From Thermoplasmatota archaeon (GTDB lineage: Archaea > Thermoplasmatota > E2 > DHVEG-1), in assembly GCA_016932245.1 (NCBI GenBank), contig JAFGDG010000139.1:1-38264 (forward strand): a DNA stretch of 38,264 nt. The letters are read 5' to 3'. The position numbers and the translations under genes are program-made. The first letter of the stretch is position 1. Each line of letters starts with the position of its first letter. This document shows positions 8,909 to 36,053 of this stretch, in pieces. Below the pieces are notes generated by a model. That model did not search any database. It saw only the letters and a list, made by a program, of their open reading frames with translations, and was not told the DNA's origin.

Positions 8909-10326
8909 TAGCCCATCCTCCGCATATGGATAATATTTACAATGACAAAGATAATTAAAGACATCATTAACCCAGGATACAGGGGTTCTAACCCATAGTA
9001 ATATTGTGGCCATCCCCAACTATCAAGGTTCATATAACCAGTAATAAGCCAAAAGAGCGAGGTACCTGCTCCTGCAATCATAGAGAGGACAGATGCCAAT
9101 GATGATTTTCTACCATTATAAAAAAATCCCACAAGGATAGGTACAAGCAAAGCAGCAATACCGATAGTACCTAGAGTATACCACATAGCAACAATGGAAT
9201 CAAAAAAGAGAGCGATGACTAGTGCGAATCCTGCAGTAATAACGATGCTGATTTTTGTCATCTTCATCTCTTGTTTCTCAGTGGAGTTTGGCCTGAAAAT
9301 ACCTTTATACAGATCATGAGAAATATTCATGGCACCAAGCAGAGTAAAAGAATCAACAGTACTCATCACAGTGGCAATAAGCCCTGTTAAAAATATTCCC
9401 AACAACACGGGGGGCAAAACAGAGCTAGCGATTGATAGATACGAGGTTGCCGCAGATTCAACAGAAAGCAAACCTGCATTGTAGGCAGCTGCTGCATACA
9501 TACCGGTGAAGGTTGTACAAATGTCAAAGAGCAACCAAAAGACAATAGCAATGAGGATACCTTTCCGGGGAATGCGATCATCTTTTGCCGCATAACACCG
9601 TTGGTAAAAACCAGGATCGACAAGTGTCCAAAAGGCAAGCAGCCCCCATACAAGAATCATTTGTGTGGTCCAGCCACCAGTAATGGTTAAATGGGTCGAA
9701 GGGAGATTTACCATAAGAAAATCTAAACCTCCGTATTTCTGAATGGTAAAGGGAATGATCAGCGCAACGCCTATCATCATAAAGAGAAATTGTAAGAAGT
9801 CAGTGTAGATATCAGCAAAAAATCCTCCGCGGATGGTATAAAAAATAATGAAAATAGTTCCAAAGAGAATACCTAACCATGCTTCACATCCAAAGAAAAT
9901 ACTAAAAATAATGCCCAGTGAAAAAATATAGGGAGCAGGAGTTACCATAATAAAATTGAAAATTGCTCCAACAAACCGTGATTTTTTATCATAGAATCGT
10001 TCAAGCTGATCAGGAATCGTATAGAGGTTTGACTTTCGTATTCTATTGGCAAGAAAGAGGGCAAAAAAAAGATATACCAAGTACCAGAAGAAGCCTTGGG
10101 TGAGCCAATTAACAAGTCCATAATTAAAGGAGAGCTCGCCAACACCCAATAGCCCGCCGTACCATGTAGAAACCAGGGTTGCAACAAAGATAGGTAGCGT
10201 AAGGCGACGGCCTGCTAAAAAATAATCGGTAATACCGTGTACTTTCTTTTTTACTACATAGCCTATGACAAAAAGTAAGACGAAGTAGAATCCAATAATC
10301 CCATAATCAATCAGCGATATCTCCAT
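8908..10326 (-). CDS. sodium:solute symporter (SSS family)
   Basis: 472 aa, ~13 TM segments; DYFLAGRRLTLPIFVATLVSTWYGG, TIRGGFFADIYTDFLQFLFM, LTGLIATVMSTVDSFTLLGAMNISHDLYKG. Confidence 0.92.
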   Translation of the reverse strand: MEISLIDYGIIGFYFVLLFVIGYVVKKKVHGITDYFLAGRRLTLPIFVATLVSTWYGGLLGVGELSFNYGLVNWLTQGFFWYLVYLFFALFLANRIRKSNLYTIPDQLERFYDKKSRFVGAIFNFIMVTPAPYIFSLGIIFSIFFGCEAWLGILFGTIFIIFYTIRGGFFADIYTDFLQFLFMMIGVALIIPFTIQKYGGLDFLMVNLPSTHLTITGGWTTQMILVWGLLAFWTLVDPGFYQRCYAAKDDRIPRKGILIAIVFWLLFDICTTFTGMYAAAAYNAGLLSVESAATSYLSIASSVLPPVLLGIFLTGLIATVMSTVDSFTLLGAMNISHDLYKGIFRPNSTEKQEMKMTKISIVITAGFALVIALFFDSIVAMWYTLGTIGIAALLVPILVGFFYNGRKSSLASVLSMIAGAGTSLFWLITGYMNLDSWGWPQYYYGLEPLYPGLMMSLIIFVIVNIIHMRRMG

Positions 10327-10338
10327 TTGCTCCCCCGC

Positions 10339-10974
10339 TCATTCCTTTCTTACTCGAATAACCAACAGTTTTCCTTTAGCTAGAGCAATGGTTGCAGTAT
10401 TTTGTAGTAAACGATTTGAAATACCAAACCATCCGACCGTGGTTTTTTTGTTGGTCACTGGCCATTTCATCCCTTTATAGGATAAACCTGCAACATCAGT
10501 TAACGGAACGACAGAAACAATGTCATTTTCTTTTCCTGTAATATCAACGGGTTTGTCGACCAATTCAATCGTATTGGTCTCATCAATAATCTGTGCCTTG
10601 ATTGCTGATGGCAATTTAGTAAGACAAAGCATGTTAGCTAGCGTGTGATCCATCCGGCACCCAAGGGCACCAAGTAATACAATTTCTTGTGGATTGAGGG
10701 ATTCGGCAAGAGATAAGGCCAATTCAACATCAGTTTTATCTGGATTAGTATCTTTAACGAGCGTGGTTTTCTTTTGTTCAATAAAGTAGGAGAGTACCTG
10801 TGCCGTTATGGAGTCAAAATCTCCAACAATATACTCTGGAATAACTCCCAATGCGTAGGCATGATTCGCACCGCCATCAGCACAAATAATCATGTCAACG
10901 TTACCCAATATTTTTTTGTGAAATGCATCATCCGTAATGGTTCCGTTAGCAATAATGGCTAGTTTCTTATGCAT
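10339..10974 (-). CDS. thiamine pyrophosphokinase
   Basis: CADGGANHAYALGVIPEYIVGDFDSI, KDTNPDKTDVELAL, LLGALGCRMDHTLANM; internal ATG at 10974 preferred. Confidence 0.87.
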   Translation of the reverse strand: MHKKLAIIANGTITDDAFHKKILGNVDMIICADGGANHAYALGVIPEYIVGDFDSITAQVLSYFIEQKKTTLVKDTNPDKTDVELALSLAESLNPQEIVLLGALGCRMDHTLANMLCLTKLPSAIKAQIIDETNTIELVDKPVDITGKENDIVSVVPLTDVAGLSYKGMKWPVTNKKTTVGWFGISNRLLQNTATIALAKGKLLVIRVRKE

Positions 10975-20349: not shown

Positions 20350-22305
20350 CTACTGCCCTTTTGACAACCCATCTACTGCCTCAGGGTTTGCAAGCGTCGA
20401 GGTGTCCCCAACATCATTACCCATTGCTTTTGCGCGGATAACTCGACGCATGATTTTTCCGCTTCTGGTTTTGGGAACATCATTGACAAACCAAATCTCA
20501 TCAGGGCGAGCGATTTTACCCATTTCTTTACCCACATGCTCACGAAGCTGCTTCTTGAGTTCTTCACTAGGGGTTGTCCCTTTACGAAGCACGACAAAGG
20601 AAGCAATCGATTCTCCCTTAATCTCATGTGGTTTACCAATGACCGCTGCTTCGGCAACAAGCGGATGGCTTACCAACGCTGATTCAACTTCGGAGTTTCC
20701 AATTCTATGGCCGGAAACATTGAGAACATCATCTGCTCGTCCCTGAATCCAGAAAAATCCATCCGAGTCTTTTCGAGTGACGTCTCCAGCAAGGTAAGTA
20801 TTGTCAAATTTACTCCAGTACGTTTCTTGATATCGATCTGGATTTTTGTAGATGCCACGTAACATACCTGGCCAGGGATGAGTTAGCACTAAGTTACCGC
20901 CAGCATTTTGAATCGGTTTTCCTTCTTCATTGAAGACCTCGGCAGAAAGGCCCGGCAATGGCCGTGTTGCTGAACCAGGTTTCAACGGCGTGAGTGGTAA
21001 CGGCGAGATTACAAAATGTCCCGTTTCGGTCTGCCACCACGTATCCATGATTTGGCAATGTTCTTTACCAATGACTTTGTAATACCACATCCATGCTTCA
21101 GGGTTAATGGGTTCGCCAACAGAGCCCAATAACCGGAGCGTACTCAAATCATGCTTGTCAGGCCATTCTTCTCCCTGTCGCATGAAAGATCGAATGCTAG
21201 TTGGAGAGGTGTAGAGCAACGTTACTCCATAGCGCTCAATAATATCCCACCAGCGATCTGGCTGCGGCCAATCAGGGGCACCTTCATATAACACTGACGT
21301 AGCACCAAGAATCAGCGGTGCATACACAATATAGGAATGTCCTGTAATCCACCCAATATCAGCAGCACACCACCAGATATCTTCCTCTTTCATATCAAAG
21401 ACCCATTTTAAAGTGTAGGAGGTACCTACGGCATAGCCCCCATGAGCATGAATAATTCCTTTTGGCTTTCCTGTGGTCCCTGAAGTATATAAGAAAAATA
21501 AAGGATCATTGGCATCAAGATGCTCCGTCTCACATTCTTTCGGCATGTCTTTTATAGCATCATCCCACCAAATATCTCTGCCCTCGTTCCAGGAAACAGT
21601 ATCTCCCGTTCTTTTGCAGACAATTACGTGTTTAACACTCGGTGCATTTTCTACAGCTTCATCCGCTTGTTTTTTTAATTGCACTTTTTTACCACGACGA
21701 TAGAAACTATCGCAAGTAAAAACCACCTTTGCCTCACAGTCGTTAACTCGATCTCGAAAAGCAAGGGCAGAAAATCCTGAAAAGACAACAGAATGAACAG
21801 CACCAATTTTTGCACAAGCAAGCATGGCAATAGGAAGCTCAGGTACCATAGGGAGATAAATACCAACACGATCGCCTTTTTTGACACCTAATTTTTTGAG
21901 TGCGTTTGCCATTTTATTGACTTCAATGTACAAATCATTGTAAGTATATTTTTTAACTTCACCGGGCTCACCTTCATAGATAAAGGCAACTTTGTTTTTC
22001 CGCCAGGTTTTAACATGTTTGTCCAAAGCGTCATGAACAATGTTGTACTCTGCGCCAACAAACCATTTGACCCAGGGCGGATTCCACTCAACTACTTTTT
22101 TATAGGGTCTATACCATTCAACAAGATCTTTTGAAATCTCGTCCCAGAACCATTGCCAATCTCCACCTTTTTTATAGAGTTCATCAAGCGTTTTGATATT
22201 ATGCTTCTCCATCCATTGCTTGACGTTGGTGTTTTCAACAGATTCTTTTGAGGGCGTGAACACCCTCTTTTCATCCATTAACACAGAGATGTTTTCTTTA
22301 GCCAT
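20350..22305 (-). CDS. acs: acetyl-CoA synthetase (AMP-forming)
   Basis: [67 protein letters not shown]; start at 22305 preferred. Confidence 0.95.
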
Positions 22306-22533
22306 ATATTCTACCTTCCCTTCACGCATAACGCAGAGATACAACAGATACACAAACACATATCTGATAGGCATGTTGAGCGACGACATTCCCCCTATGC
22401 CCAGGGGTGCTGGAATATACTTTGTGTATAAGAAGTTTTTGTAAAAAGGAAGCGCGATTGTTGAAGAAAGTAAGGGTATAACAAGGGTAAGGCATTAAGC
22501 GAAACACTGAAATGCTAAAAGTTGTTATCTATA

Positions 22534-24687: not shown

Positions 24688-26664
24688 CTATGATGATATC
24701 GTCTCATCAACCATGGGAATCAATTGTTTATCTTTGAATCCTTTTTGTTGCATGGCACCTGAGGGACAAGAACCGACACAAGCACCACAGCCCATGCAGA
24801 GCGCCTCGTTAACCTTGGCATGGGATTTGCCATCCTCTCTTTTTACCAGATCTATCGCATTATACGCACAGACTGCAATACAAGAACTACACCCCGAACA
24901 CAACTCTTCCTCTACAAAAGAAACCATTGGTTCTGCTTCCAGTTCTTTTTTTGAAAGAATTGTTGCTGCTCGAGCTGCTGCGCCACTTGCTTGTGCAACA
25001 GAGTCCTGAATGTCTTTTGGTCCTTGGCAACAACCAGCAATAAAAATGCCGCCCGTAAATGTATCCATGGGGCGAAGTTTGGGATGGGCTTCAAGAAAAA
25101 AGCCATCAGCACTTGTTGAGACGCGCAGTGTCCGAGCAAGTTCATCTGCATTTGTGCGTGGAATAAGTGCAGGAACAAGTACGACAAGATCAGTAGAAAT
25201 CTCAAACAGTTTATTGGTGATTGTATCAAAGATATCGATGGTAAGATGAACACCTGCATTTCGAACCTCTGAAGGACGACCTCTAAAGAAATTGGTATTC
25301 ATTCCTCGGATCTTTCGATAAAATTCTTCATAGCCTTTTCCAAACGATCTGATATCTGTGTAACATACGTTGATTTCTACATCATCGCCACATTTTTCTT
25401 TCAGCAAATACACCTGTTTTAATGCACTCATACACCCAATGCGACAGCACCAGGCACAGGCAGTCTCATCACGTGATCCAACACATAAAACATAGGTGAT
25501 ACTTTTTGGTTTTTCTCCTGTCGATGGACACACAATTTCACCACCAGTTGGGCCTGAGGAATTGATTAAGCGTTCCATCTGCATGGTGGTAATCACATCA
25601 TTAGAGCGAGCATATCCATACTCGTGCAGGGTAGAAGGATCCATGATATCGTATCCTGTCGTGACGACGATCGCGCCAACATTCAATTCTACTGCCTTAT
25701 CTTTCTGTTTGAAATCAATGGCGCCTGCCTCACATGCGTCTACACAAAGCGGGCCCGTTCCACATTTGCCACGAGTGAGCATTAAGCAATGGTCTTTATC
25801 AATAGTACACTTCAGCGGTACTGCTTGTGGAAATGACAGGTAGATGGCGCTTCGTTTTCCCATGCCTTCATCAAATTCACTGGTGATTCTGCCTTTCAAC
25901 CGGCATGCCTCAACGCAGTCCCCACATCCCGTACATTTGTCCATATCTACATATCGTGCTTTCTTATTCACGGTAACAGTATAGTTACCAATACTTCCTT
26001 CAATACCTGTTACTTCAGCATAGGTCAGCAGCTCAATATTTGGATGATTGGCAACCTCCATCATTTTTGGAGTCAAAATACAGCCCGAACAATCAAGAGT
26101 AGGAAAGGTCTTGTCAAGCTGTGCCATCCGGCCACCAATGGTTGGATGTTGCTCAACTAAATACACTTTGTGTCCTTCTTCTGCTAAATCAAGCGCTGAT
26201 TGTATACCAGCAATACCGCCACCAATAACTAATGCATCTGGATTCACATCTATTTTTGATGTTTCAAGTGACTCGAGCAATTTTGCTTTTGCAACGGCAC
26301 CACGAACCAGCGCTTTTGCTTTCTCTGTTGCCCGCGTTTTATCTTCATGGGCCCATGAACATTGTTCTCTCACATTTGCAATTTCTAGATTGAATGCATT
26401 AATGCCGCCTGCTTCAACAACACCTCTGAATGTGTGTTCATGCATCCTTGGAGAACAGCAGGCGATCACCACGCCGTCAAGTTTGTGTTTTTTGATAGCG
26501 TCTTTAATAAGAGTTGCGCCGACATCAGAACACATATATTTGTAATCCTTGCTAACGACGACTCCATCCAATGTTTTTGCATAGTTGACAAGCGTGTTAA
26601 CATCAACAGTGGACGCGATATTGATTCCACAATGGCAGACAAACACACCGATCTTTCTGTCCAT
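24688..26664 (-). CDS. hdrA: CoB-CoM heterodisulfide reductase-like iron-sulfur subunit A
   Basis: GVFVCHCGINIASTVDV, ALVIGGGIAGIQSALDLAEEGHKVYLVEQHPTIGGRMAQLDKTFPTLDCSGCILTPKM; multiple CxxCxxCxxxC ferredoxin motifs. Confidence 0.94.
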   Translation of the reverse strand: MDRKIGVFVCHCGINIASTVDVNTLVNYAKTLDGVVVSKDYKYMCSDVGATLIKDAIKKHKLDGVVIACCSPRMHEHTFRGVVEAGGINAFNLEIANVREQCSWAHEDKTRATEKAKALVRGAVAKAKLLESLETSKIDVNPDALVIGGGIAGIQSALDLAEEGHKVYLVEQHPTIGGRMAQLDKTFPTLDCSGCILTPKMMEVANHPNIELLTYAEVTGIEGSIGNYTVTVNKKARYVDMDKCTGCGDCVEACRLKGRITSEFDEGMGKRSAIYLSFPQAVPLKCTIDKDHCLMLTRGKCGTGPLCVDACEAGAIDFKQKDKAVELNVGAIVVTTGYDIMDPSTLHEYGYARSNDVITTMQMERLINSSGPTGGEIVCPSTGEKPKSITYVLCVGSRDETACAWCCRIGCMSALKQVYLLKEKCGDDVEINVCYTDIRSFGKGYEEFYRKIRGMNTNFFRGRPSEVRNAGVHLTIDIFDTITNKLFEISTDLVVLVPALIPRTNADELARTLRVSTSADGFFLEAHPKLRPMDTFTGGIFIAGCCQGPKDIQDSVAQASGAAARAATILSKKELEAEPMVSFVEEELCSGCSSCIAVCAYNAIDLVKREDGKSHAKVNEALCMGCGACVGSCPSGAMQQKGFKDKQLIPMVDETISS

Positions 26665-26665
26665 A

Positions 26666-27544
26666 TTAGCCCTCCCCCACCATTGCTAATTTGTTCACCG
26701 GACTAAGATTCAAATCAAGACCGAGTTTGTCTTTTGGGATACCAAACGAAAGACCAAGGAGCTGAGTAAGATATAACACAGGAACCTCTAACTTTGCAGC
26801 AACAGTTTCTCCTGCTTTTTTTTGTTTGGAATCATACTGTCGATGGCACCACGGACAGATATCAATGAACGCGTCAAAGTTTTGCTCCTGAACTTTTTGT
26901 AGTTTTTGACCTGTTTTAGTTAATGCAGACTCAGGATGATTTGCCGTAAGTAATCCCCCACAACAATCAAGTTTTTCAGGATAATCCATAGGTTCTGCAC
27001 CGATGGCTTTAAGAATAGTTTCCATCTTCTGAGGATTTTCTGCGTCATCAACTCGCCCGATTTCCGTGGGTCGTATAAGATGACAACCGTAGTGCGTGGC
27101 AACTTTCATCTCCTTCAGTGGTTTTTTGACTAGTTTTGTTATTGTTTCAACACCAACGATATCATGTAAGAGATCAAGGGTTGTTACAACCTCAGCAGTA
27201 CCCATATAATGGAGTTCTTCATCTTTCAAAAAGGCATTTACTTTTTCATTCATTGCAGGATCTGAGTCTACTATCTTTTTACATTCGGAAAATGCGAGAT
27301 GACAGACAGGGCAGGGAGCAAAGACATCGAGCTTTTCTTTTTCAGCGATCGCAAGATTTCGTGCAGAAAGAGCAAGCGTAAGCATTTGATTGACACTTTT
27401 TAGTGGCTCTCCGCAACATGAAAAACCATTGAGGTCAACAAGCTCGATATCGAGTTTTGGAAGTACAGCACGCAGAGACAACTCATATGCATATTGTTCC
27501 GTTGACATTACACAACCGGGATATAACGCATATTTTTTCATCAT
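26666..27544 (-). CDS. hdrB: heterodisulfide reductase-like subunit B (two CCG domains)
   Basis: YALYPGCVMS, GFSCCGEPLKS, CPVCHLAF; ATHYGCHLIRP, LDCCGGLLTANHPE, CPWCHRQYD. Confidence 0.92.
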   Translation of the reverse strand: MMKKYALYPGCVMSTEQYAYELSLRAVLPKLDIELVDLNGFSCCGEPLKSVNQMLTLALSARNLAIAEKEKLDVFAPCPVCHLAFSECKKIVDSDPAMNEKVNAFLKDEELHYMGTAEVVTTLDLLHDIVGVETITKLVKKPLKEMKVATHYGCHLIRPTEIGRVDDAENPQKMETILKAIGAEPMDYPEKLDCCGGLLTANHPESALTKTGQKLQKVQEQNFDAFIDICPWCHRQYDSKQKKAGETVAAKLEVPVLYLTQLLGLSFGIPKDKLGLDLNLSPVNKLAMVGEG

Positions 27545-27551
27545 AATCACC

Positions 27552-28079
27552 TTATACTTTTTCAACAGCAAGTTTTGAAAGCATCGTTTGAAACTTCATT
27601 GGATCTGTTGGTTTAGAAGCGTCAGGAAGGCCAAGATCTGCTCGTGTTTTGGTTTTGTTATCTCGAGTAGAAACACTTTTTACTTCTTGGAGAAGCCCGA
27701 TGGACAAGACGGATTGAAGCCAAGCAGTATAGTTCCCAGGAATTTGTTTGCCACTCGCTACTGCAAGATTTTTTAACGCAAATAAAATCTCAACTGGCGC
27801 CACTTTCTGCGGGCATCGCTCACGACACTTAAAACAGCTCATGCAGGCCCAAATAACATCAGAATTCATCATTTCATCAATAAGCCCTCGTTTGAGAAGA
27901 GCAACCATTCTATGTGGTTCGAGCTCTAGCAGTTTATGAGCTTCGCAACCAGACGTACACTTTGCACACTGGAAACAATAATCAGAATGTTCGTCCTGCA
28001 ATCGAGCCAATCGCTCATTGATTTCTTTTCGTAACTGTGTTTGTGCTTCCCCCATAGAAGTTAAGTCGACAATACTCAT
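27552..28079 (-). CDS. hdrC: heterodisulfide reductase-like subunit C
   Basis: CFQCAKCTSGCEAHKLLELEPHRMVALLKRGL and CMSCFKCRERCPQKVAPVEILFALKNLA: two 4Fe-4S motifs. Confidence 0.92.
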   Translation of the reverse strand: MSIVDLTSMGEAQTQLRKEINERLARLQDEHSDYCFQCAKCTSGCEAHKLLELEPHRMVALLKRGLIDEMMNSDVIWACMSCFKCRERCPQKVAPVEILFALKNLAVASGKQIPGNYTAWLQSVLSIGLLQEVKSVSTRDNKTKTRADLGLPDASKPTDPMKFQTMLSKLAVEKV

Positions 28080-29431: not shown

Positions 29432-30478
29432 ATGATGCAGGTGCTAATGATAGGTATCGTTTATCACCACGATTATAACAAATACGATCTGGGGACCACT
29501 CATCCTCTTGTTGGAGATAAACCAAAAAAAACAATAGAATATCTAGAAAAAACAGGAATATTGCATGAATTAACACAGTTCGCTCCTACAAAAGCAACGG
29601 ATGATGATCTGCTTCGTGTCCATGCAAAACAGTATGTTGATAAAATTAAATCACTCAGTAAAACAGGAGGGATGCTAGCATTTGATACCCCTGCTCCGGT
29701 GGGCATCTACGATATTGCCGCCTTGGCAACCGGCGGTACCATGCTTGCCGGTGAGAAGTTATTCTCAGGTTTTGACTGCATGATCAATCCTCTTGCCGGT
29801 TTTCATCATGCAAGCAGCAGTACATCCTCGGGATTTTGTTTTTTTAACGACATTGCAGTTACCATCGAATACTTGCGACAAAAATATCAGCTTCAGCGAT
29901 TCTTAATAGTGGACCTCGATGTTCATCACTGTAATGGCACACAGGACATTTATTACGATGACCCAACAGTACTGACTATCTCTTTTCATCAAGATGGGCG
30001 AACGTTATATCCTGGTACGGGTGCCATTGACAAAATCGGAAGAGACGCAGGGGAAGGATACAATGTAAATCTTCCGCTTCCTTCAGGAACAGGCAATCAA
30101 AGCGTTCGTTATGCATTTCATGAACTCATTCCGTCGTTAGGTATGCAATTCAACCCACAAGTAATCATATATCAATCTGGTGTCGATACTCATCACTCCG
30201 ATCCGTTAGCAGATCTGAAACTCACATATCAAATCTATTACCATCTAGGGAAAAATATGAAAACACTTTCCACTAAAACCTGTAATAAACTGCTCGTTGC
30301 ATTTGGCGGTGGGTATAATAGTGATGCAAGTGTAAAATCATATTATAACCTAGTTTGTGGATTACTTGGGAAAAGAGAACATATCACAGAAAACGAAATC
30401 GCTGACCCAAATAGTCAAGAGGTAAAGGCATTAGTGAATCGGATAAAAACGATACTTAAAGATCACTGGATTTTTTAA
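29432..30478 (+). CDS. histone deacetylase superfamily (AcuC/AphA-like) deacetylase
   Basis: LAGFHHASSSTSSGFCFFNDIAVTIEYL, LIVDLDVHHCNGTQDIYYDDPTVLTISFHQDG, YPGTG; catalytic HH and DxDxHH motifs intact. Confidence 0.92.
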   Translation: MMQVLMIGIVYHHDYNKYDLGTTHPLVGDKPKKTIEYLEKTGILHELTQFAPTKATDDDLLRVHAKQYVDKIKSLSKTGGMLAFDTPAPVGIYDIAALATGGTMLAGEKLFSGFDCMINPLAGFHHASSSTSSGFCFFNDIAVTIEYLRQKYQLQRFLIVDLDVHHCNGTQDIYYDDPTVLTISFHQDGRTLYPGTGAIDKIGRDAGEGYNVNLPLPSGTGNQSVRYAFHELIPSLGMQFNPQVIIYQSGVDTHHSDPLADLKLTYQIYYHLGKNMKTLSTKTCNKLLVAFGGGYNSDASVKSYYNLVCGLLGKREHITENEIADPNSQEVKALVNRIKTILKDHWIF

Positions 30479-30565
30479 TATGAATTATTTACCGAAATGC
30501 TGTAACGATAAACTTATTAACACCATTTAATATGGGGGGCACGACCGCATTTTCTTGATGAGGGA

Positions 30566-33244
30566 ATGAGTATGGGTATTGAGAATTTAGACAAAATTTT
30601 TAAGCCAAAAAGTATCGCTGTTGTTGGAGCAAGTGATAAAGAAGGATCGGCAGGATATCGAATTTTTCGAAACTTAATTGGCTCAGGATACAACGGTGTC
30701 GCATATCCCGTAAATCCAACGAAAGAAAGTGTTCAAGGTGTTCAAGCATATCCAACCGTCGATAAACTACCCAAAATCGTTGATCTAGCAATTATTGCTA
30801 CTCCCTCCAAAGTGGTATTGGATGTTGTTGAGCAATGCGGAAAGAAGGGAATCATAGGAATACTGATTATTTCAGCAGGATTCAAAGAAATTGGTAAAGA
30901 AGGAGTTGCCCTTGAAAAACAATTGTTGAAAATCAAAGAAAAATATGGATTGAGACTTGTGGGGCCCAACTGTGTTGGGTTCATTCTTCCTTACCTTAAT
31001 TTAAACGCAACATTTGCAGGATCAATGCCTGAGCGGGGAAATATTGCATTAATCTCACAGAGTGGTGCCGTCTGCGGAGCCATTCTTGATTGGGCCGCAG
31101 CAGCAAAAGTTGGCTTTAGTTCGTTTGTCTCAGTTGGTTCCATGCTTGATGTTGACTTTGGCGATCTCATAGATTATTTTGGAACGGACATTCATACTCG
31201 CAGTATTGTCCTTTACATCGAATCCATAACAAATGCACGGAAATTCATGAGTGCAGCACGAAGTTTTGCTCGAGCAAAACCCATCATCGTCATTAAATCC
31301 GGGCGGTTCAGTGAAGGGGCAAAGGCAGCCGCGTCACATACTGGAGCAATGGCTGGAGAAGATGCTGTCTACGACGCGGCGTTTAAGCGGGCAGGCATTG
31401 TTCGAGTAAAAGAAATTAGCGATTTGTTTAATTGCTCATCCATTCTTGCAAAACAACCTCGTCCAACTGGACCAAATCTTGCCATTGTCACTAACGCAGG
31501 AGGTCCAGGTGTGTTAGCAACAGATGCGATTATTGAGTTGGGGGGCAAACTAGCAAAACTTTCCCCAGAAACGATGGAAAAACTAAATGCTGCATTACCG
31601 CCTCATTGGAGCAAAGGCAACCCTGTCGATATCATTGGCGATGGAGATGAAAACCGCTACCAAAAAGCTATTGAGGCATGCTTAGAAGATAGTAATATCG
31701 ATGGGTTACTTGTGATTTGTGTTCCGCAGGTCGTGGCAAATCCTAAAATACTGTCAGAAAGAATTATTGATATTGCCAAAAAATCAACCAAGCCAATTTT
31801 AGTAGCATTTCCTGGGGAAGAAAGTGTCTACCACGCAAGACAATTACTAAATAGAAATAATATCCCCGCCTATTCAACACCTGAAGAAGCAGTAGAATCC
31901 TATATGTATCTCTATCATTATGCTCGAAATCTTGAATTATTGTTTGAAACTCCTGAAGAACGCGATGTAAAACCGTCTGCTGATCATCAAGAGAAGCTGA
32001 AAAAGATACTGTCGGATGCACTGAACGAGGGGAGAGCGTTACTGACCGAAGGAGAGGCAAAAGAGTTTCTTGAGCTATATAACATAAAAACAACAAAACC
32101 ACAAATCGCCATCTCAGAAAAAGAAGCAGTATCTCTTGCAAAGAAGGTAGGATATCCTATAGTAATGAAAATTCATTCACGACAGATTACTCACAAAAGT
32201 GATGCTGGCGGCGTAGCTCTTAATTTACAATGCGAAGAAGTGGTACGTGATGCTTACAAAACAATGATGAAAACGGTGAAGCAAAACGCTCCTGATGCAA
32301 TTATTGAAGGGGTCACTATACAAAAAATGATTAAAAATAAGGGCGGAGAGTTTATCTTGGGATCAAAAAAAGATCCGATTTTTGGTTCTATCATCTTATT
32401 TGGTATGGGTGGCATCTATACCGAACTATTCAAAGACCGATCCATAGGATTTCCGCCAATAAATCAGGTGATTACCCAGCGCATTATCGAAAAAACAAAA
32501 GCCTACCAGTTGCTAAAAGGATTTAGAGGTATCGCTCCAGCAAACATGGAAAAGGTGGAGGAAACCATGATGAATTTCTCCCAACTAATTAGCGACCATC
32601 CTGAAATTCAAGAAATTGATATCAATCCGTTGATTGTCGAGGGAGATGACTTAATTGCAGTTGACGCGCGAATTGTTGTTGACAAGCATCCAAAAGGAAA
32701 GCCGCATCTTATTATTAGCCCCTATCCAACCAAGTACATGAAAACCCTTTCTTTAAAGGATGGAACAGAGGTGTTGCTTAGACCAATAAAGCCAGAAGAT
32801 GAGCCGCTGTGGCTTGAGATGTTCAAAACGTTTTCAGAGGAATCGGTACGATTTCGATTTTTCAGAATTATCAAAGATACGCCGCATGAAATGCGAACAC
32901 GATATTGCAATATCGATTATGATCGTGAAATCGGTATTGTCGGTGAAGTGAAAGAGAAGGGGAAACAACGATTACTTGGAGTCACCAGACTCATCGTAGA
33001 GCCAGGAAGAGACGACACTGCAGAATTTGCCCTTATTGTGAGTGATAAATGGCAACGATTAGGATTGGGTTCAGAATTTCTTGATTATACTATTCACATT
33101 GCAAAGGACAAAGGACTCAAGAAACTCTATGGCATTGTCATGAAGGACAATGTTCCTATGATTACTTTATGTAGAGAAAAGAAATTTAAATTTTCGGAAG
33201 GAGACCCTGGACAATATTACATAGAATACAATCTTAAAACGTAA
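30566..33244 (+). CDS. ADP-forming acyl/acetyl-CoA synthetase (fused alpha-beta) with C-terminal GNAT domain (Pat/PatZ-like architecture)
   Basis: FKPKSIAVVGASDKEGSAGYRIFRNLIGSGYNG, GPNCVGFI, ISQSGAVCGAILDWAA, ASHTGAMAGEDAVYDAAF (His retained); ATP-grasp beta part; C-terminal GNAT TAEFALIVSDKWQRLGLGSEFLDYTI. Confidence 0.93.
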   Translation: MSMGIENLDKIFKPKSIAVVGASDKEGSAGYRIFRNLIGSGYNGVAYPVNPTKESVQGVQAYPTVDKLPKIVDLAIIATPSKVVLDVVEQCGKKGIIGILIISAGFKEIGKEGVALEKQLLKIKEKYGLRLVGPNCVGFILPYLNLNATFAGSMPERGNIALISQSGAVCGAILDWAAAAKVGFSSFVSVGSMLDVDFGDLIDYFGTDIHTRSIVLYIESITNARKFMSAARSFARAKPIIVIKSGRFSEGAKAAASHTGAMAGEDAVYDAAFKRAGIVRVKEISDLFNCSSILAKQPRPTGPNLAIVTNAGGPGVLATDAIIELGGKLAKLSPETMEKLNAALPPHWSKGNPVDIIGDGDENRYQKAIEACLEDSNIDGLLVICVPQVVANPKILSERIIDIAKKSTKPILVAFPGEESVYHARQLLNRNNIPAYSTPEEAVESYMYLYHYARNLELLFETPEERDVKPSADHQEKLKKILSDALNEGRALLTEGEAKEFLELYNIKTTKPQIAISEKEAVSLAKKVGYPIVMKIHSRQITHKSDAGGVALNLQCEEVVRDAYKTMMKTVKQNAPDAIIEGVTIQKMIKNKGGEFILGSKKDPIFGSIILFGMGGIYTELFKDRSIGFPPINQVITQRIIEKTKAYQLLKGFRGIAPANMEKVEETMMNFSQLISDHPEIQEIDINPLIVEGDDLIAVDARIVVDKHPKGKPHLIISPYPTKYMKTLSLKDGTEVLLRPIKPEDEPLWLEMFKTFSEESVRFRFFRIIKDTPHEMRTRYCNIDYDREIGIVGEVKEKGKQRLLGVTRLIVEPGRDDTAEFALIVSDKWQRLGLGSEFLDYTIHIAKDKGLKKLYGIVMKDNVPMITLCREKKFKFSEGDPGQYYIEYNLKT

Positions 33245-33256
33245 AAACACCAATAA

Positions 33257-34644
<1,388 letters not shown>

Positions 34645-34645
<1 letters not shown>

Positions 34646-34678
34646 AGAAGTTTAATAAACTTCTTTTTTCTTTTTTTT
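34645..34678 (+). terminator. hairpin + U-run terminator-like structure after gdhA
   Basis: AAGAAGTTT-AAT-AAACTTCTT perfect 9-bp stem (34645-34665) followed by a T-rich run; begins at the last base of the TAA stop. Confidence 0.65.
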
Positions 34679-34766
34679 CGACAATTGGTGTAAAAAGAAA
34701 CCAATGATTTATATTGTAGTTGTATATATCCGCTCTTCGACTCCAAATTCTAAGGGGAAAGAGACC

Positions 34767-36053
34767 ATGGCAAAAGAAGGATACAATCCATTCAAAATGG
34801 CACAACAACAATTTGATAGAATTGCAGATATGTTGAACCTTGATGGACCCACACGAGATCTATTACGGAATCCCTTGAGAGAATATCATGTAGCCATTCC
34901 CATTAAAATGGACGATGGAAAAATAAGAATTTTCAGGGGATTTAGAATACAACATAACGATGCACTTGGCCCCTGTAAAGGAGGAATACGATTTCATCCG
35001 CAGGAAACCGCTGATACTGTTCGTGCACTTTCCATGTGGATGACGTGGAAATGTTCAGTAGCAAATATTCCGCTCGGGGGTGCAAAAGGAGGCATTATTT
35101 GTGACCCGCACAACCTCTCAGAGAATGAACAAGAGCGGTTATGCCGTGGATGGATACGACAGGTGTGCCGGGACATCGGTCCGGTACGAGATGTGCCTGC
35201 GCCAGATGTTATGACAAACAGCCAACACATGCTCTGGATGATGGATGAATACCAGACGATTGTCGGTGGCCAATATCCTGGCATTATTACTGGTAAACCA
35301 GTAGCACTTGGGGGGTCACTCGGAAGAACAGAGGCAACAGGTTATGGACTGATATATCAACTGAGAGAAGTTCTCAAACAAATGGATATGGATATTACAA
35401 AAACGAAAGCATCGATTGAAGGATTTGGAAATGTTGCACAGTATGCAGCAGAGTTATTCATCGATTATGGTGGCACTGTGGTATGTGTTTCATGCTGGGA
35501 CCAAAAAGAGGGGAGAGCCTACAGCTACTATAAAGAAGATGGTATTAACATGGAAGAGTTGCGAAAAATCACTGATCGTTTTGGAACCATCGATAAACAA
35601 AAAGCAGAAAAGCTAGGATACAAAGCAATGGCTGGTAGCGAGTGGCTTAAACACGATGTGGAAGTGCTTATTCCTGCAGCCCTTGAGAATTCCATCACAA
35701 AAGACAACGTTAAAGAAATCAAACCGGGTGTAAAAATTATAATCGGTGGAGCAAATGGACCCATAACTCCTGAGGCGGAAGACGTGCTCACGAAAAATGG
35801 TGTAGCGGTGATACCCGATTTCCTAGCAAATGCAGGTGGGGTAGTATGCAGCTATTTCGAACAAGTGCAGAGCAACCAAAATTACTATTGGACTAAAGAA
35901 GAAGTATTAGGAAAATTAGATAACAAAATGACTGATGCTTTTTACAAAGTATGGGAACTTGCACAACGCAAAAAAGTCAGAATTAGTGATGCGGCATACA
36001 TGATTGCCATCCAGCGAGTGGCTGAAGCCTGCAAGTTAAGAGGATGGGTATAA
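34767..36053 (+). CDS. Glu/Leu/Phe/Val dehydrogenase (second, archaeal-type glutamate dehydrogenase)
   Basis: FRIQHNDALGPCKGGIRFHPQETADTVRALSMWMTWKCSVANIPLGGAKGGIICDP, PAPDVMTNSQHMLWMMDEY, IEGFGNVAQYAAE; start at 34767 preferred. Confidence 0.93.
   Translation: MAKEGYNPFKMAQQQFDRIADMLNLDGPTRDLLRNPLREYHVAIPIKMDDGKIRIFRGFRIQHNDALGPCKGGIRFHPQETADTVRALSMWMTWKCSVANIPLGGAKGGIICDPHNLSENEQERLCRGWIRQVCRDIGPVRDVPAPDVMTNSQHMLWMMDEYQTIVGGQYPGIITGKPVALGGSLGRTEATGYGLIYQLREVLKQMDMDITKTKASIEGFGNVAQYAAELFIDYGGTVVCVSCWDQKEGRAYSYYKEDGINMEELRKITDRFGTIDKQKAEKLGYKAMAGSEWLKHDVEVLIPAALENSITKDNVKEIKPGVKIIIGGANGPITPEAEDVLTKNGVAVIPDFLANAGGVVCSYFEQVQSNQNYYWTKEEVLGKLDNKMTDAFYKVWELAQRKKVRISDAAYMIAIQRVAEACKLRGWV

Follow-up and report, generated by a model that had tools for sequence, protein, structure and literature searches.

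The Locus and Its Genes

An HDAC gene followed by a gene for an ADP-forming acyl-CoA synthetase (ACD) with a C-terminal GNAT domain raises the question whether the two proteins write and erase the same lysine acetylation, and on which enzyme they would do so. Work on protein acetylation in archaea has mostly dealt with single-domain GNATs and sirtuins. The 38,264 nucleotides analyzed here, in the following the window, make up contig C19 of an archaeal metagenome-assembled genome (MAG) of 1.6 Mb. Its closest named relatives are MAGs of Thermoplasmatota, and its family includes SM1-50 and 3300003432D, described as Thermoprofundales/MBG-D (PMC6461988). We favor a writer/eraser pairing for reversible lysine acetylation tied to acetyl-CoA and acetate metabolism, with a probability of roughly 0.55.

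ORF calls, Pfam and NCBIfam agree with the initial annotation that the two genes lie on the same strand, 87 nt apart; both are intact:

29432..30478, + strand: HDAC-superfamily zinc deacetylase (HDAC-1), ORF of 348 aa; PF00850 (Hist_deacetyl), 279 bits, residues 24-307
30566..33244, + strand: ADP-forming acyl-CoA synthetase with C-terminal GNAT (ACD-GNAT, Pat-like), ORF of 892 aa

Conservation of the N-termini across relatives places the likely true starts at 29447 (MIGIVYHHDYN, 343 aa) and 30572 (MGIENLDK, 890 aa), respectively. Orthologues within the family are 56–68% identical for the HDAC and 64–80% for the fusion, far above chance. Two further deacetylases, a SIR2 and another HDAC, are encoded in the host genome, together with separate ACD alpha and beta subunits; because of the latter, the fusion may be dispensable for acetate formation.

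Divergent HdrABC-like genes are located upstream of the HDAC in several genomes (window 24688-28079; L070, L087, L088), with a TauE-like gene in between in the window, and hydrogenase-like genes (L091:15918-18385) occupy this position in genus g23. Downstream of the pair the window contains the following genes, which we do not consider part of the unit since relatives do not have them next to the pair:

33308-36053: two different glutamate dehydrogenases in tandem (NADP-type and archaeal GdhA-type)

The HDAC Has a Complete Active Site

The HDAC contains the His pair, the Asp-His-Asp zinc ligands and the catalytic Tyr of classical Zn-dependent deacetylases:

29804..29809, + strand: catalytic His-His pair H125-H126, conserved without exception in family (27/27) and wider (9/9) orthologues

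The zinc-ligand positions D163, H165 and D252 and the catalytic Y295 are likewise invariant in the 27 family orthologues. The AlphaFold model (pLDDT 91.5) has bacterial HdaH/KDAC-type deacetylases, HDAC8 and HDAC6 as its best PDB folds. The closest, HdaH of P. aeruginosa and Klebsiella, Kdac1 of Acinetobacter and the DmhA/PrpH hydrolases, are 27–31% identical to the window HDAC and have all catalytic residues in common with it; compared with these enzymes, its active-site loop has the G-F-H-H form.

Polyamine deacetylases of the ApaH/HDAC10 type are characterized by a gatekeeper Glu (PEG motif) or Ile (PIS motif) (PMC11532494). The corresponding stretch of the window HDAC reads D-P-L259-A, and the Leu, which is neither, is invariant in 36 orthologues. 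An enzyme limited to acetylpolyamines, which the initial annotation had named as counting against the pair, is thus not supported by the gatekeeper residue.

The Fusion Retains the Catalytic Residues of Both Its Parts

The fusion shows the Pfam order CoA_binding_2, Succ_CoA_lig, Ligase_CoA_2 and ATP-grasp_5, followed by Acetyltransf_1/3 at residues 736-870, and scores 573.5 bits against the NCBIfam ACD alpha domain TIGR02717 (cut-off 567). Three features are central to its predicted activities:

31337..31339, + strand: codon of H258, the swinging-loop phosphohistidine of ACD (in SHTGAMAGED), equivalent to H256 of Nmar_0206
32192..32194, + strand: codon of H543, the ATP-grasp histidine, equivalent to H535 of Nmar_0206
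32720..33241, + strand: GNAT domain, with catalytic Glu E820 and motif A Q830-R-L-G-L-G835

In Nmar_0206, for which the structure has been solved, H256 and H535 carry phosphate (PMC11494057). H258 is invariant in 21/21 family fusions and 62/62 others, and H543, which is also present in PatZ, in 83/83. Together with the ATP-grasp motifs, the fusion therefore holds the two catalytic histidines by which an ACD is recognized. The stretch of E. coli K-12 PatZ aligned to SHTGAMAGED reads ...RLLNTTAGMD, and this alignment bears out the earlier observation that the histidine kept in the fusion is lost in PatZ.

The domain order, both catalytic histidines and the ATP-grasp motifs are shared with Korarchaeum ACD1 and Nmar_0206, neither of which has the added C-terminal GNAT; in ACD1, unlike in the fusion, the alpha and beta chains are separate as well. 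Assays of the ANME-2a Acd were considered as proof that such fusions work and discarded, since that enzyme consists of two separate subunits, alpha and beta, of 55 and 25 kDa (PMC7414198).

Residues of the GNAT domain were assigned by alignment to PatZ, S. lividans PatA and M. tuberculosis Pat. All 83 fusions keep E820, and nearly all have the acetyl-CoA motif Q-x-x-G-x-G. The initial annotation had allowed for a GNAT lacking acetyl-CoA binding; the domain has both this motif and the catalytic Glu. The AlphaFold model of the fusion (pLDDT 88) has E. coli PatZ (TM 0.83-0.87), the Nmar 4HB-CoA synthetase and Korarchaeum ACD1 as best PDB folds, and the GNAT model matches 4u5y, in which the PatA GNAT is bound to the C-terminal domain of Acs (TM 0.92 by target length).

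Linkage Is Conserved Within the Family

Among 45 genomes of the family, the fusion is found in 23, an HDAC-1 orthologue in 27 and both in 21, a co-occurrence with a Fisher p of 1e-5 that is uncorrected for phylogeny (21/2/6/16 for both, fusion only, HDAC-1 only and neither). Conserved adjacency in related archaea had been proposed as a check of the pair, and it holds in 19 of the 21 genomes with both genes: the HDAC lies upstream of the fusion, codirectional and on one contig, across 12 genera. No gene intervenes in 11 of these 19 (G000, G004, G009, G010, G011, G017, G019, G022, G025, G029, and G032), which represent ten genera and have gaps of 61-134 nt to the longest ORF. The genes outside the pair vary from genome to genome in this group; as the flanks are shuffled while the pair is kept, the linkage is not mere block preservation.

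Seven of the 19 linked genomes belong to genus g23, where a single pyruvate:ferredoxin oxidoreductase (PFOR) gene of ~1200 codons separates the HDAC from the fusion. In G003 PFOR and three further ORFs lie between the two, and in G043 and G044 the HDAC and PFOR are together, with the fusion on a separate contig. The PFOR is complete in all intact g23 cases (L098:7259-10840, L091:11033-14644, and equivalents); this genus includes SM1-50. In the window genome, PFOR is located on a different contig (C16).

HDAC-1 occurs without an intact fusion in G001, G002, G007, G012, G026, and G027 and in sister families, so that its distribution is broader than its partnership with the fusion. In G026 an intact HDAC is positioned directly 5' of a broken fusion remnant of about the first 50 codons (L088, about 10095-10400); the writer was lost recently here, and the eraser has stayed. 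The fusion without HDAC-1 was observed in G008 and G020, both ~72% complete. Such absences are soft, because all genomes are MAGs and many are incomplete.

A Promoter-Like Element Lies Between the Genes

When the intergenic regions of 12 family genomes were aligned, a conserved element emerged in the gap between HDAC and fusion:

30506..30521, + strand: BRE/TATA-like element CGATAAACTTATTAAC, inferred promoter of the fusion gene
30531-30535, + strand: conserved TATGG-like stretch downstream of this element

In genus g23, similar BRE/TATA-like elements precede both PFOR and the fusion. With a conserved promoter-like element between them, HDAC and fusion may be transcribed separately; the fusion apparently has a promoter of its own, and we do not claim an operon for the window pair, given the conservation of the TATA-like element in 12 genomes.

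The Pairing Recurs Outside the Family

The initial annotation had named an absence of adjacency outside this genome as refuting the pair; besides the family, independent instances exist in Altiarchaeota, a Lewinellaceae and a Dehalococcoidales. An HDAC is the next gene in 3/63 named fusion loci outside the family, where ~0.1 would be expected (P ~1e-4 in a rough gene-count model):

L163, Lewinellaceae: fusion and HDAC with a 13-nt overlap
L166, Dehalococcoidales: fusion and HDAC convergent, 22 nt apart
L170, archaeon LFW-28: fusion and HDAC 1 nt apart

An HDAC is present somewhere in 28 of 31 fusion-bearing genomes outside the family, and adjacency is therefore exceptional outside the two archaeal groups. 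LFW-28 belongs to the Altiarchaeota (PMC8561730), and in all five fusion-bearing genomes of its order the fusion precedes the HDAC, the reverse of the window order, at a distance of -4 to +1 nt. The HDAC of this order is of a different subfamily, 32% identical to the window HDAC and in a separate clade (support 100/97), and in the tree the fusions of this order do not form a sister clade to those of the window family. The pairing has therefore arisen or been rebuilt independently. The literature searched, which consisted of open-licence papers only, contained no account of an archaeal HDAC gene adjoining an ACD-GNAT gene.

Acs as a Candidate Target

The window also encodes a full AMP-forming Acs, as was pointed out in the initial annotation:

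20350..22389, - strand: AMP-forming Acs, full length; TIGR02188, 922 bits (cut-off 725)

The target lysine (K in RSGKIM) is residue 645. This Acs indeed lies about 8 kb from the pair, but its nearness is not kept in relatives. Most family genomes encode Acs, whether or not they have the fusion, and its proximity was rejected as evidence: in G003, G012, G020, and G038, where the locus is on a long contig, Acs is located on a different contig or far off, and only G026 has it within 17 kb. In other lineages Acs is found closer. The gene order is PAT-HDAC-ACS in G436 (L215), G435 has ACS-PAT at a contig end and PAT-HDAC on another contig (L216/L217), and in seven Bathyarchaeota loci the fusion has an AMP-forming Acs as its immediate neighbor, in convergent orientation.

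A known parallel is B. subtilis, in which the GNAT AcuA and the HDAC AcuC acetylate and deacetylate AMP-forming AcsA (PMC13121692). As in acsA-acuABC of B. subtilis and Geobacillus, a GNAT acetyltransferase and an HDAC-like deacetylase are encoded together (PMC13121692), with Acs nearby in some relatives of the pair; Acs joins the acetyltransferase-deacetylase pair in two Altiarchaeota-order genomes, not in the window family. The pair differs from acuABC in that the acetyltransferase is a full ACD-GNAT fusion rather than the single-domain AcuA and that no AcuB was recognized beside the fusion; in addition, the window Acs is 8 kb off and a promoter-like element lies within the pair. Of the interpretation as a pair, the pairing of a candidate writer with a candidate eraser is supported; the proximity of Acs is not kept in relatives, and, given the promoter-like element in the gap, HDAC and fusion are adjacent genes but not an established operon.

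Proposed Mechanism and Alternative Explanations

We infer both activities of the fusion, the identity of the substrate and the direction of control from the observed gene content, conserved linkage, intact catalytic residues and predicted folds. The ACD part of the fusion would catalyze acetyl-CoA + ADP + Pi <-> acetate + ATP + CoA via H543 and H258, and its Pat-type GNAT would acetylate lysines of partner enzymes with acetyl-CoA as donor. The most plausible target is the RSGKIM lysine of the AMP-forming Acs, whose acetylation would stop ATP-burning acetate activation at high acetyl-CoA, and the neighboring HDAC would strip the acetyl group off. That Acs is the main target in the window lineage we hold with lower confidence than the pairing itself. 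The placement of PFOR, which makes acetyl-CoA, between HDAC and fusion in g23 lends support to the mechanism. As the pair recurs in distant archaea, sometimes beside Acs, it makes a good candidate on/off switch for acetate metabolism. A more elaborate version, in which the ACD of a bifunctional enzyme gates its own GNAT, flux from PFOR to ACD sets Acs acetylation, the HDAC erases it, and archaea put the arrangement together on two or more occasions, using different HDACs, is put forward as a speculative possibility.

The least probable alternative, and in our view a quite improbable one, is that the fusion is a plain type I Pat, with an ACD part that, like that of PatZ, only senses acetyl-CoA and lacks synthetase activity. 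The N-terminal ACD and C-terminal GNAT form the layout that the initial annotation recognized as that of Pat/PatZ proteins; E. coli PatZ and Salmonella Pat share it together with the catalytic Glu, and PatZ is both 35% identical over the full length and the best fold match. The likeness does not extend to the dead ACD: type I and II Pats are described as inactive in this region through loss of the catalytic swinging-loop histidine (PMC8556138), whereas the fusion keeps that histidine and the ATP-grasp motif GGIYTELFKD, both lost in PatZ but invariant among the fusions, with H258 and H543 invariant in 83 fusions. It is therefore not a textbook type I Pat and, judging from its sequence, apparently an intact bifunctional enzyme. 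This suggests that a large group of archaeal and bacterial ACD-GNAT proteins is misread when each is taken for a Pat whose regulatory domain is dead. The textbook partner of PatZ, moreover, is the sirtuin CobB and not an HDAC.

The same invariance of the ACD residues in 83 relatives would suit a fusion that is mainly a metabolic ADP-forming acetyl-CoA synthetase and conserves energy downstream of PFOR, with GNAT and HDAC adjusting the fusion or PFOR rather than Acs. The insertion of PFOR beside the fusion in g23 and G003 fits this as well, but this genome has ACD alpha and beta as separate genes too, and the recurring neighbor in other phyla is Acs, not PFOR; we regard this explanation as rather unlikely. 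Also unlikely is that small molecules or unrelated proteins are the substrates of the HDAC, its adjacency reflecting gene-order inertia or shared regulation, and that SIR2 deacetylates the Pat targets. The SIR2 gene in the genome, the persistence of HDAC-1 in fusion-less genomes and sister families, and the separate promoter element of the fusion all agree with such a scenario. The linkage has nevertheless outlasted the shuffling of other neighbors, Altiarchaeota link another HDAC subfamily to the same kind of fusion through overlapping genes, and the gatekeeper is a Leu. Under the writer/eraser pairing, a conserved pair whose writer contains an apparently live synthetase, from a lineage widespread in sediments, offers a concrete and easily expressed test system for the question of how acetate production and use avoid a futile, ATP-wasting cycle.

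Related GNAT Domains

Proteins of ~625 aa from other Thermoplasmatota bear the same kind of C-terminal GNAT (L198:6613-8484, L199:6467-8338), on an N-terminus that by eye resembles acetyl-CoA hydrolase/CoA-transferase. In G133, a stand-alone GNAT adjoins a similar gene (L195). The GNAT appears to accompany enzymes for the interconversion of acetate and acetyl-CoA. One sister family has a stand-alone GNAT that is 52–53% identical to the C-terminal domain of the fusion.
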